64,000 bases of DNA from Marinobacter szutsaonensis (GTDB lineage: Bacteria; Pseudomonadota; Gammaproteobacteria; Pseudomonadales; Oleiphilaceae), in NCBI RefSeq assembly GCF_039523335.1, contig NZ_BAAAFC010000001.1, positions 930,001 through 994,000 on the forward strand, written 5' to 3'. Below, one piece after another: positions 18,296-60,379 of the stretch. The notes beneath the pieces are model-generated. The model was not told the origin of the DNA and searched no databases. It saw nothing but the letters and a program-made list of their open reading frames with translations. Both the position numbers and the translations under genes were made by a program. Within the stretch, counting starts at the first letter, position 1, and the number at the start of each line of letters is the position of its first letter.

Positions 18296-18408
18296 GAGCG
18301 GGCGGGGCTATGGCTCCCAAAACTCGCTCCTTCGGCACATCCCTGTGGCGCTTGAGCTCCGCCATCCATGGCTCCGCACAGTTTTGGGAGCCATAGCCCC
18401 ACCCGCTC
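18296..18408 (-). repeat. Core-and-arm element F1-A
   Basis: A 113-bp inverted-repeat element with 28-bp arms (one mismatch). Its core is shared with F1-B, F1-C and F1-D, but the outer arm sequence is found nowhere else in the window. On the minus strand the core contains GCC-ATGGAT-GGC and CAC-AGGGAT-GTG hairpins, both matching CANGGANG. The single arm mismatch is C-A on the plus strand and G-U on the minus strand. It lies 3' of both zapG and nif3 in their convergent gap; the minus-strand reading would place it in the nif3 3' untranslated region. The rest of the 352-bp gap holds two 30-bp palindromes. Confidence 0.88.
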
Positions 18409-18447
18409 CATCCGACTTGGTTGCTATTCGCTTCATGGGATGAAGTT

Positions 18448-18583
18448 GGGGTCAGATGAAAGCTTTCATCTGACCCCGGGGGAGATTTTGGCTTCGGGGA
18501 GAGCTTGCCTCCCCCAGAAGTTTGATCTTCGCAAGCACACGGACTGAAGCACCGGGGTCTGAAGAAAGCCTTCTTCTGACCCC
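18448..18583. repeat. Two 30-bp palindromes
   Basis: Copies at 18448-18477 (fully self-complementary, with AAGCTT at its centre) and 18554-18583 (T-T mismatch at position seven) lie between F1-A and the nif3 stop. About 75 bp of unremarkable sequence separates them. Confidence 0.9.
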
Positions 18584-18606
18584 ATTTTCATGACTCCACG
18601 TTCAAA

Positions 18607-19350
18607 TCACACCGGGTTATCGCAATCGATGAACTGGTGTTTTACACCAAATTCCTTCTCCAACGCCATCCCAAGTGCCTGCACACCATAGCGTTCTGTA
18701 GCGTGGTGACCCGCAGCGAAATAGTGGATGCCGCATTCTCGAGCAGTGTGAGTCGTCGGTTCTGAAATTTCCCCGCTGATATACGCATCGAGGTCAGCAT
18801 CCAGGGCAATGTTGATGAAGCCCTGCGCGGCACCGGTGCACCAGCCTACCCGCTTGATCTCCTGCTTGCCCTCACCGACCCAGAGAGGTTCGCGGTGGAG
18901 CTTTCTGGCGATATGCAGACCGAACTTTTCCGGTGTCATCGGTTCCTGCAGCTCACCTTCCCAGACCAGGCCGCCTAACGGGCGCGGATTTTTGATTTCG
19001 AGGACGTCGGCGAGCTGGCGGTTGTTGCCATACTCCGGGTGATCGTCCAGCGGGAGGTGGTAGGCGACGAGATTGATATCGTGATCAAGCAGTTGCTTCA
19101 GGCGCTCCCGCTTCATGCCTCGGATGCGCTGGTCCTCGCCTTTCCAGAAGTACCCGTGGTGGACGAGGATCATGTCGGCGTTGGCTTCGATGGCGGCTTC
19201 GATCAATGCCTTCGATGCGGTTACGCCGGTGATGATGGTGTCGATCTCATCCTTCCCCTCGACCTGGAGGCCGTTGGGGCTGTAGTCCTGGAAGTTTTCG
19301 GGTTGGAGCCATTCGTTGATTTTGGAAAGAATCTCAGATCGGATTGCCAT
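18607..19350 (-). CDS. Nif3-like dinuclear metal centre protein (YbgI family)
   Basis: A 247-residue Nif3/YbgI-family protein. Metal ligands are seen in ILVHHGYFW, in YHLPLDDHPEYGNN and in the C-terminal FAAGHHATERYG; together they bind two metal ions in a hexameric ring. The family is also described as a GTP cyclohydrolase I type 2-like fold; the physiological reaction is unsettled. AGAGGGGAG lies just before the ATG, which excludes the longer in-frame extension. In Pseudomonas the homologue also lies near hisC. Here a core-and-arm element separates the two. Confidence 0.9.
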   Translation of the reverse strand: MAIRSEILSKINEWLQPENFQDYSPNGLQVEGKDEIDTIITGVTASKALIEAAIEANADMILVHHGYFWKGEDQRIRGMKRERLKQLLDHDINLVAYHLPLDDHPEYGNNRQLADVLEIKNPRPLGGLVWEGELQEPMTPEKFGLHIARKLHREPLWVGEGKQEIKRVGWCTGAAQGFINIALDADLDAYISGEISEPTTHTARECGIHYFAAGHHATERYGVQALGMALEKEFGVKHQFIDCDNPV

Positions 19351-19386
19351 AGCTCCCCTCTTGATGACTATAACTCTGTAATTTGA

Positions 19387-19498
19387 GGGGCGAGGCGGGC
19401 AAGGGTTTCTGGGAATGTTGAAGGCCAAGGATGGCCTGAAACAAGCGCACATGGACGTGCTCGTAGCGGTTCCCAGAAACCCTTGCTCGCCTTGCCCC
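19387..19498 (+). repeat. Core-and-arm element F2-a
   Basis: A 112-bp element of the second core type, with arms of about 29 bp and two differences, both G-U pairs when read on the plus strand. The plus-strand core has AGGCC-AAGGAT-GGCCT and GCAC-ATGGAC-GTGC hairpins, each loop matching CANGGANG. It fills the hisC-nif3 gap and is antisense to their transcript. Confidence 0.88.
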
Positions 19499-19516
19499 AA
19501 CTCCAAAACTAGCAGG

Positions 19517-58399: not shown

Positions 58400-58569
58400 C
58401 ATGCACCCAAAGCACAGAGCCCGGAGATAATACCACAGAGAAACTAGCGACAAGCCGAGACAATGGTGGTTGAAGAATAATCACCCCGTTATAATACCCA
58501 GTTCCTTTTTGCTGGCGCCCCGCGAAACCAACAGTCCCGGCGCGACATCCACCAGATCACGTGAGAACC

Positions 58570-59916
58570 ATGGCCAAAAAGCTGTACATCAAAACCCACG
58601 GCTGTCAGATGAACGAGTACGACTCTGCCCGCATGGCGGACCTGCTCAAAACCGGTGAAGCGGTCGAAATGACCGACAGCCCGGACGACGCCGACATCCT
58701 GCTGCTGAACACCTGCTCCATCCGGGAAAAAGCCCAGGAAAAGGTATTCCACCAGCTTGGCCGCTGGAAAGGCCTGAAGAGCAAAAAGCCTGACCTGATC
58801 ATCGGTGTTGGTGGCTGCGTGGCTTCCCAGGAAGGCCAGGCCATCATTGACCGGGCCCCATACGTGGATATGGTCTTCGGCCCGCAGACCCTGCACCGCC
58901 TGCCGGACATGATCACCGAGATCAAAACCAAGGGTAACGGCGTCGGCGTGGTGGACGTCAGCTTCCCGGAAATCGAGAAGTTTGACAATCTCCCGGAGCC
59001 AGGCGCCAACGGGCCGTCCGCGTTTGTCTCCATCATGGAAGGCTGCAGCAAATACTGTACCTTCTGCGTGGTGCCCTACACCCGCGGCGAAGAAGTCAGC
59101 CGCCCGGTAGATGACGTAATCGCCGAAGTCGCCCACCTGGCCGGCCAGGGTGTTCGGGAAGTGAACCTGCTGGGCCAGAACGTCAACGCCTATCGCGGCG
59201 AGACCCACGACGGCGACGTCATGGACCTGGCCGAACTGATCGAACTGATCGCCACCATCGACGGCATCGACCGCATCCGCTACACCACCTCCCACCCGGT
59301 GGAGTTCTCGGATGCCCTGATCGACGTCTACGAGAAAGTGCCGGAACTGGTCAGCCACCTGCACTTGCCGGTCCAGAGCGGTTCCGACCGCATCCTGGCA
59401 GCCATGAAGCGCGGCCATACGGCCCTGGAGTATAAATCCAAGCTCCGCCGCCTGCGCAAGATACGTCCGGACATCAGCTTCTCCTCGGACTTCATCGTGG
59501 GATTCCCGGGTGAGACCGACAAGGACTTCGAGGACACCATGAAGCTGATCAATGACATCGGCTTCGACGTCTCATTCAGCTTCGTCTACAGCGCGCGCCC
59601 GGGCACCCCGGCCTCCGACCTGCCGGACGACACGCCCATGGACGTGAAGAAGGAGCGCCTGGCGATCCTGCAGCAGCGGATCAACCAGCAAGCGATGGAC
59701 ATCAGCCGCAAGATGGTGGGCACCACGCAGCGGATTCTGGTGACCGGCCTGTCCAAGAAAGACCCCGGGGAGTATGCGGGGCGCACGGAGAACAATCGGA
59801 TTGTGAACTTCCGGCATGAGAATCCGGAAGTGGTCGGGAACTTTATTGACGTGGAGATTGTGGAGGCTTATCCCAATTCTCTGCGGGGTGTGCCTGTGGG
59901 CTCGGAGTTGCATTAG
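58570..59916 (+). CDS. miaB: MiaB, tRNA-i6A37 methylthiotransferase
   Basis: A 448-residue radical-SAM methylthiotransferase. LYIKTHGCQMNEYDSARM, LLNTCSIREKAQEKVF and GVGGCVASQEG hold the auxiliary-cluster cysteines; the radical-SAM CSKYCTFCVVPYTRG is near residue 157; a TRAM domain ends the protein. It makes ms2i6A37 in tRNA. I prefer the ATG to the GTG nine bases earlier. The last 150 bp are G/T-rich, ahead of F2-c. Confidence 0.96.
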   Translation: MAKKLYIKTHGCQMNEYDSARMADLLKTGEAVEMTDSPDDADILLLNTCSIREKAQEKVFHQLGRWKGLKSKKPDLIIGVGGCVASQEGQAIIDRAPYVDMVFGPQTLHRLPDMITEIKTKGNGVGVVDVSFPEIEKFDNLPEPGANGPSAFVSIMEGCSKYCTFCVVPYTRGEEVSRPVDDVIAEVAHLAGQGVREVNLLGQNVNAYRGETHDGDVMDLAELIELIATIDGIDRIRYTTSHPVEFSDALIDVYEKVPELVSHLHLPVQSGSDRILAAMKRGHTALEYKSKLRRLRKIRPDISFSSDFIVGFPGETDKDFEDTMKLINDIGFDVSFSFVYSARPGTPASDLPDDTPMDVKKERLAILQQRINQQAMDISRKMVGTTQRILVTGLSKKDPGEYAGRTENNRIVNFRHENPEVVGNFIDVEIVEAYPNSLRGVPVGSELH

Positions 59917-59994
59917 AGCTCGGGACGCATCCGTTTTAGGTTTTGGCGTTGTATTCGGCCTGGGATCGTATTCGTCTGGGGTTTGGAGTTGGGC

Positions 59995-60100
59995 GAGTGG
60001 TGGGTAAGCCCTCCCCAAAACCGCTACGAGCACGTCCATGTGCGCTTGTTTCAGGCCATCCCTGGCCTTCAACATTTTGGGGAGGGCTTACCCACCACTC
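59995..60100 (-). repeat. Core-and-arm element F2-c
   Basis: Perfect 26-bp arms, 106 bp in all. The minus-strand core has AGGCC-AGGGAT-GGCCT and GCAC-ATGGAC-GTGC hairpins, both loops matching CANGGANG. It lies 78 bp after miaB. The 527-bp miaB-phoH gap also holds one 30-bp palindrome and F2-d, with no gene. Confidence 0.88.
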
Positions 60101-60169
60101 TCCGCAGGCAGCACAGTCGCATGCAAGTCATCAGCTAAGCTGAATTATTTAAGGGTCAGGTAAAGCACA

Positions 60170-60199
60170 GGGGTCGGATGGAAGCTTTCATCTGACCCC
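60170..60199. repeat. Single 30-bp palindrome
   Basis: A diverged copy (GGGGTCGGATGGAAG left arm) between F2-c and F2-d. The right arm is canonical, so it appears to be an old copy losing pairing. Confidence 0.85.
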
Positions 60200-60267
60200 A
60201 ACTTCAAACCGGCCTCCAAAAGCCTGCCACTTGTTTTTAAACTAACGGGCCTGCAAATAGTAAGATC

Positions 60268-60379
60268 GGCCGGGGTGCGGGGCCCCTTCCACAGACTGTT
60301 GAGGGCCAAGGACGGCCCGAAACAAGCGCACATGGACGTGCTCGTAGCGTGTCTGTGGAAGGGGCCCCGCACCCCGGCC
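60268..60379 (+). repeat. Core-and-arm element F2-d
   Basis: A 112-bp element with perfect 29-bp arms, the cleanest of the eight. The plus-strand core has GGGCC-AAGGAC-GGCCC and GCAC-ATGGAC-GTGC hairpins. Hairpin 1 has G-C where F2-a has A-T at its base, a compensated change. It ends 64 bp before phoH, in the same sense. Confidence 0.9.

Follow-up and report, generated by a model that had tools for sequence, protein, structure and literature searches.

A 64,000-nt stretch of the genome of Marinobacter szutsaonensis (contig NZ_BAAAFC010000001.1, positions 930,001 to 994,000; the window, hereafter, means this whole stretch) carries eight copies of a dispersed element in which two small GGA-loop hairpins form a core of ~57 nt at the tip of a long, near-perfect stem. 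Judging from sequence and predicted fold, each element may be a structured RNA that binds one dimer of the protein CsrA (RsmA), and together the elements may constitute a distributed decoy for this protein, a reading towards which the evidence tilts modestly.

An earlier, sequence-only reading of this DNA had listed eight elements with paired CsrA-type loops and proposed that a covariance model be built from them and searched against the genome. All eight are present where that reading placed them. The model built here, R1, was trained on 50 diverse elements, 14 of them from the M. szutsaonensis genome and including the copy at 19387, and at E≤10 it recovers exactly these eight from the window and no others, seven with E-values of 3.4e-20 or less and the interrupted copy at 50927 with 3.5e-6. 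At E≤0.01 the same model finds 90 elements in the genome. The loops, read in the GGA sense, are also as had been listed, the second one being lost in the 50927 copy. The window elements are given below with their core type (F1 or F2), loops and, for F1 copies, their score against RF01731 (TwoAYGGAY), the nearest Rfam family.

e1, 18296..18408, minus strand: F1 core; loops AUGGAU and AGGGAU; RF01731 36.8 bits
e2, 19387..19498, plus strand: F2 core; loops AAGGAU and AUGGAC
e3, 47197..47308, minus strand: F1 core; loops AUGGAU and AGGGAC; RF01731 39.4 bits (cut-off 43)
e4, 50717..50827, minus strand: F1 core; loops AUGGAU and AGGGAC; RF01731 34.4 bits
e5, 50927..51115, plus strand: F2 core, long form; loop 1 AAGGAU, loop 2 destroyed
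e6, 58287..58399, plus strand: F1 core; loops AAGGAU and AGGGAC; RF01731 29.6 bits
e7, 59995..60100, minus strand: F2 core; loops AGGGAU and AUGGAC; downstream of miaB
e8, 60268..60379, plus strand: F2 core; loops AAGGAC and AUGGAC

A variable stem around a constant core

The sequence-only reading had seen the two small hairpins in the core, which stand, and had overlooked the long variable stem that encloses them, as well as the divergent pairing and the retention at orthologous sites described below. In RNAfold predictions the core of the window elements caps a long, almost perfect hairpin (-73 to -115 kcal/mol), as its two flanking sequences are complementary. The stem measures 25-33 bp in 82 of the 90 M. 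szutsaonensis elements (28-30 bp in 60 of the 90) and is longer in two; for the remaining six, long-form copies among them, the arm script found just 4-12 bp. The outer arm sequences are unlike between copies, with an identity of 0.42 against 0.43 expected from composition (arms of at least 24 nt): the inner end of the arm usually reads CCAAAAC/GUUUUGG and the outer part is specific to the copy. In an alignment of 50 elements (52 were selected by script and the last two omitted) the arms are nonetheless 99.0% paired, with both-side changes at all 16 inner pairs, and the whole structure contains 381 cells with both-side changes against 107 ± 9 in shuffles.

The core carries two CANGGANG sites on its sense strand in 83 of the 90 elements and one in the other seven, the opposite strand having none; in a second species, G019, two sites lie on one strand in 77 of 79 elements. 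The two GGA sites start 23-25 nt apart in the M. szutsaonensis elements. Hairpin 1 has an ANGGAN loop closed by a C-G pair, and its extension among the 50 aligned elements is a GGA/GGA internal loop (22, plus two near variants), tandem A.G/G.A (15), fully paired (nine) or something else (two). Hairpin 2 bears an ANGGAN loop on a covarying stem (CAC/GUG, UAC/GUA or CCC/GGG). In 160 two-site elements, loop 1 is AUGGAU in 86, AGGGAU in 32 and AAGGAU in 15, the second base often being a purine.

The earlier observation that GGA is held while the N positions vary extends well beyond the window, and the stems change too. GGA is constant in hairpin 1 of 50/50 aligned elements and in hairpin 2 of 49/50, a constancy that is partly built in, because this alignment and the 243-element set used below were oriented by the greater number of CANGGANG. 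Fairer counts come from non-anchor inverted repeats and R1 hits, yet R1 was itself trained on such oriented elements. Examined genome-wide, GGA is better conserved than the rest of the core.

As the triplet GGA is common, it could have fallen by chance into unrelated intergenic palindromes. An inverted-repeat scan blind to the core, covering 210 sequences and 1.30 Mb, returned 287 distinct repeats; their arm lengths peak at 26-30 bp, and 232 have a loop of 50-59 nt. Where the arms reach 22 bp or more and the loop spans 45-65 nt, 228 of 232 repeats contain exactly two CANGGANG on one strand; in the non-anchor subset, 71 of 74 repeats have both sites complete and confined to one strand, two have one site and one has none, counts that show what the shape carries and not its frequency, because most of this DNA was chosen for having elements. 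Furthermore, R1 E-values reach 3.7e-23, and 278 of 299 genomes sampled across the phylum give no match at E≤1e-4. Chance, to which we would assign a negligible probability, is already refuted by these site, E-value and phylum counts.

The flanks of the element are conserved too, as GGCTA.C.C..AAGTTTGG on the 5' side and TGCACC.AAGTC on the 3' side, with log-likelihoods of 258 and 304 compared with 68 and 54 for shuffled flanks. An outer helix formed from these flanks was considered and rejected, complementarity within elements (4.96) showing no excess over that between elements (4.88).

Inserts of ~80 nt were seen in several copies. In e5 such an insert, with extra hairpins, lies inside hairpin 2 and abolishes the second GGA site. 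A similar hairpin-bearing insert occupies the hairpin 2 loop at L026, L030, L088, L094, L095, L096, L193 and L203; the hosts are F1, F2 and F4 elements of several species, and the second GGA is lost in the copies seen.

The GGA strand and CsrA

A single transition in a perfect palindrome leaves either a G.T or an A.C mismatch on a given strand, and the arm finders used here score the two alike. On the GGA strand, arm mismatches are G.U in 146 cases and A.C in 12 across the 243 oriented elements, 72 versus 17 in M. szutsaonensis and 80 versus 24 in G019, these three sets being overlapping or related and not independent. The M. szutsaonensis elements that are antisense to both neighbouring genes show the same preference (26 versus 5). 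Because G.U outnumbers A.C there, what is kept is the single-stranded fold of the GGA strand. The excess is as expected of RNA; a single-stranded DNA hairpin or transcription-linked, strand-biased mutation is expected to give the same sign.

A folded RNA need not involve CsrA, and the elements could instead be cis-acting hairpins for RNA processing or boundaries, such as RNase III substrates, 3'-end stabilisers or transcription blocks, in which the long stem is functional and CsrA irrelevant. The tightly held stem length and the kept pairing would suit such a role. So would the setting, as 87 of the 90 elements lie wholly between open reading frame (ORF) calls, made with a codon-usage ORF caller written for this analysis, and many are near an ORF end; the exceptions are e3, flagged inside an ORF call, and two elements that share ~55 nt with the following ORF at its predicted start. 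In divergent pairs, moreover, a member that faces the 3' end of a gene is antisense to that gene (14 of 14 cases). This explanation accounts neither for the constant CANGGANG in two loops nor for the same strand being kept by elements antisense to both neighbours, and the flank consensus from the motif search has no conspicuous T-run (no dedicated terminator scan was run). As such, we consider it unlikely, though worth keeping in view.

According to PMC7652899, ANGGAN hexaloops are the high-affinity RsmE form, and one CsrA dimer can bridge sites 10-63 nt apart. The spacing of 23-25 nt falls inside this range, which agrees with the suggestion of the sequence-only reading that paired GGA loops suit dimeric CsrA. 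The M. szutsaonensis genome has one csrA match. In the CsrA reading, each short-form element would be a structured RNA of ~105-115 nt, related to TwoAYGGAY, in which a ~28-bp stem, unconstrained in its outer sequence, carries a core of two ANGGAN hexaloop hairpins at a distance that would let a single CsrA (RsmA) dimer clamp both sites. If transcribed from ~90 intergenic loci, the elements would jointly act as a distributed CsrA decoy, and any transcript containing an element would gain a CsrA docking site. The pairing of the stem and not its sequence is kept, both arms changing in blocks, and the core is sometimes exchanged or reversed at its site; DNA template switching between inverted repeats would be expected to leave such a pattern.

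Several observations weigh against this reading. Long-form copies without the second site persist at several loci, and dispersed copies with similar cores could reflect a DNA-level element. The strand test alone is no proof of RNA, because single-stranded DNA hairpins also tolerate G.T better than A.C and strand-biased mutation could contribute. The motif search of the flanks found no TTGACA-like box (no dedicated promoter or terminator scan was run), and there is no support for a sigma-70 promoter or an intrinsic terminator belonging to the element, the conserved flanks showing neither such a box nor a T-run. One spacer between paired arms is just ~37 nt. Single elements have no fixed gene orientation, 3' ends being 30 antisense and 25 same and 5' ends 25 and 23. 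Because they lie in either orientation, the control of many neighbouring genes that the sequence-only reading had raised is weakened in general, although the members of divergent pairs have the uniform antisense placement given above.

The comparison with TwoAYGGAY, also proposed by the sequence-only reading, shows a close relative. No window copy reaches the RF01731 gathering score of 43 bits, the F1 copies scoring 29.6-39.4 bits in full-length model alignments, and a scan of the stretch holding the F2 copies e5, e7 and e8 gave no match for these. The best scores are 42.0 bits in M. szutsaonensis and 52.3 bits in other species of the genus. At E≤0.001, RF01731 matches 46 of 61 genus genomes and none of 14 control genomes; above the cut-off, 12 matches are listed, in eight of the 61. 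Because they fall below the gathering score, the window copies are filed as close relatives of TwoAYGGAY and not as members.

TwoAYGGAY was listed in 2010 as a probable RNA, probably without a cis-regulatory role, from the human gut, gammaproteobacteria and Clostridiales (PMC2864571), and was proposed in 2014 to bind CsrA, tandem-GA pairs being noted in a stem (PMC4333381). The elements described here resemble it in having two adjacent GGA-loop hairpins on a poorly conserved external stem; tandem G.A occurs in hairpin 1 of some copies (15/50 aligned elements), and the loops are ANGGAN and not strictly AYGGAY. As the proposal in PMC4333381 came first, the CsrA reading is not new. The accessible parts of PMC4333381 and PMC2864571 do not mention ~90 dispersed copies, divergent pairs or core exchange and reversal, and a description of dispersed TwoAYGGAY-like copies was not found among the open-licence PMC papers listed. 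The high dispersed copy number, the retention in place, the divergent pairs and the exchange and reversal of cores are what we put forward as new, in that they were not found described.

The CsrB, RsmX, RsmY and RsmZ decoys, which act by sequestering CsrA (PMC7652899), likewise contain several GGA hairpins with ANGGAN loops; in the present elements the two hairpins would lie together in one RNA. Unlike those decoys, which carry many sites in few RNAs, the present elements carry two sites each at many loci. A search of the M. szutsaonensis genome with Rfam PrrB_RsmZ matched no element and gave nothing above cut-off (CsrB, CsrC, RsmX and RsmY were not searched genome-wide). A canonical RsmZ was rejected as an explanation for its one sub-threshold match of 32.2 bits, since the same search matched two of 14 controls and the match is absent from the Rfam scan of the locus.

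Change in place across genomes

Most elements are retained at their sites between species. In G019, 65 of the 79 elements are at orthologous places, 61 in the same orientation and four with the core turned round. One of these reversals is clear in sequence and two show weaker arm similarity; in the fourth, the M. szutsaonensis partner is a long form whose arms were misplaced by the script. Core types differ in 11 of the 61 pairs, five being F1/F2 exchanges and the others perhaps partly point variants, given the crude pattern typing. Cores are alike at 0.90 in 58 orthologous pairs, compared with 0.78 for different copies within the M. szutsaonensis genome and 0.75 for random pairs between genomes. 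Strong homogenisation of cores within a genome is therefore rejected, orthologous cores being more alike than copies of the same genome.

For 57 of the 61 pairs, those whose arms measure 20 or more, arm positions were matched up in register starting at the inner end. Of the both-side changes, with the count of changed positions inflated because small length changes shift the in-register comparison, 260 of 451 are of transversion type and unable to pass through G.U, which rules out G.U as the sole route of compensation. The changes are also clustered, forming 263 runs where shuffling gives 322 ± 8 (52 pairs).

A similar picture comes from single sites. For the site upstream of miaB, which holds e6, 100 genus genomes were searched and 30 loci kept, one of them too short. 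The element is present in 19 of the 29 full-length loci, 18 in one orientation and one reversed, and absent in 10; across the 18 aligned elements, both-side changes occur in 20 of 29 arm pairs and 98.3% of arm cells are paired. The site of e7, which has an F2 core in the window, carries an F1-type core in loci L181 and L184.

Block changes in both arms together with occasional reversal of the spacer are a signature of inverted-repeat template switching according to PMC8794818 and PMC8604942. We infer template switching between inverted repeats as the probable mechanism here. The template-switched hairpins in those sources (PMC8794818; yeast, PMC8604942) likewise show compensatory changes of several bases at once, homogenised arms and inverted spacers or loops. 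The published cases concern the stems of microRNAs and rRNAs and, in yeast, short repeats around small spacers; unlike these, the present elements have the ~57-nt core of a bacterial repeat family reversed at orthologous sites. Regardless of CsrA, the elements offer a natural record of long-stem evolution at dozens of orthologous bacterial sites, in which the arms change jointly and in blocks and the loop is sometimes reversed.

The family reaches beyond the genus. Within the order, where at most 30 candidates were scored per genome, matches were found in 57 of 145 genomes, representing 42 of 91 genera, five of the 57 being of the same genus; in 20 of the 57, 20-30 of the 30 scored candidates match. 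The phylum survey (at most 15 candidates per genome) gave matches at E≤1e-4 in 21 of 299 genomes: 12 of the same order, including four of the genus, eight from other orders of the class and one, weakly, from outside the class. Five top-scoring examples taken from other families in the order are built alike, their arms measuring 27-38 bp. An exact pattern scan returned Marinobacter titles in 80 of the 80 matches listed. An F1 query gave no blastn match at E≤1e-5 in plasmid or phage collections (F2 was not tried), and spread by plasmids or phages was set aside on this result.

These data raise the wider proposal, which is tentative and which we hold to be possible rather than probable, that many gammaproteobacteria have a genome-wide distributed CsrA sink made of dozens of intergenic one-dimer RNAs on long stems maintained by template switching. 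In the prevailing view, a small number of dedicated RNAs do most of the titration of CsrA. If the sink is real, CsrA-binding capacity would be a property of the whole chromosome, set by the number of elements and not by one or two decoy RNAs; ~90 loci, most of them with a pair of sites, would bring ~170 further candidate CsrA sites to each genome. It would also give TwoAYGGAY, an Rfam family of unknown function, a testable setting.

Close pairs, mobile DNA and neighbouring repeats

Neighbouring elements less than 400 bp apart are divergent in 13 of 13 cases in M. szutsaonensis and 12 of 12 in G019. This rule in the genus may go back to a start region common to both members or to a unit that was already paired in an ancestor. 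In other genomes, same-strand neighbours appear in the hit lists of G437 and G488, and in G141, a relative in the order, about six two-site elements follow one another in tandem, all in one orientation and in units of 227 bp (L418, C1:92500-98000), a candidate for a natural multi-site decoy.

REP and REPIN sequences are short, dispersed intergenic hairpins that occur in inverted close pairs, and the present elements share these features. They could be remnants of non-autonomous mobile DNA (REPIN- or MITE-like), whose transposase reads single-stranded hairpins and for which the GGA loops and divergent pairing are signals. The ~90 dispersed copies, the uniformly divergent close pairs, the conserved flanks and the presence of copies in almost half of the genera examined in the order all fit such an origin. 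Unlike REP and REPIN sequences, however, the elements are longer, differ in their arms between copies, are kept in place across species (the 65 of 79 in G019) and do not lie beside a Y1_Tnp gene. Because outer arms are at least 0.8 identical in just two copy pairs of the genome, there is little sign of recent transposition. The sole Y1_Tnp (RAYT-like) match in the genome, at C1:868032 (L340), is ~24 kb from the nearest R1 hit, and mobilisation by RAYT was rejected as this lone gene is not flanked by element copies; the negative plasmid and phage searches with F1 point the same way. We regard a mobile origin as quite improbable.

Within the window, with gatC, trmH and miaB named by eye, e3 lies upstream of gatC and e6 upstream of miaB. 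The copy e1 is flanked by two convergent ORFs, and its single arm mismatch is G.U on the sense strand. Two divergent pairs are present, with e4 as the left and e5 as the right half of one and e7 and e8 as the left and right halves of the other.

Other dispersed repeats occur nearby. The palindrome GGGGTCAGATGAAAGC.TTCATCTGACCCC and its variants, often in inverted groups, do not have the two-site core. A different hairpin family has variable outer arms and a core, CTGAGCGAAGCGAGTT, between T-rich and A-rich stretches; its arms differ between copies, like those of the two-site elements, and the ANGGAN loops are not shared.

GGGGTCAGATGAAAGC.TTCATCTGACCCC palindromes, window: 10955-11121, 16121-16397, 35085-35353, 36908-37050, 37619-37822 and 56038-56217
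CTGAGCGAAGCGAGTT hairpins: L119:680-782, L187:3974-4064, L188:300-386 and L204:302-392, also in L151 and L170

Furthermore, a REP-like dispersed hairpin, GTAGGTYGGATTAG..CGTAATCCRAC, lies near several elements, for instance at L062:1659-1815 and in miaB loci such as L193 and L203.

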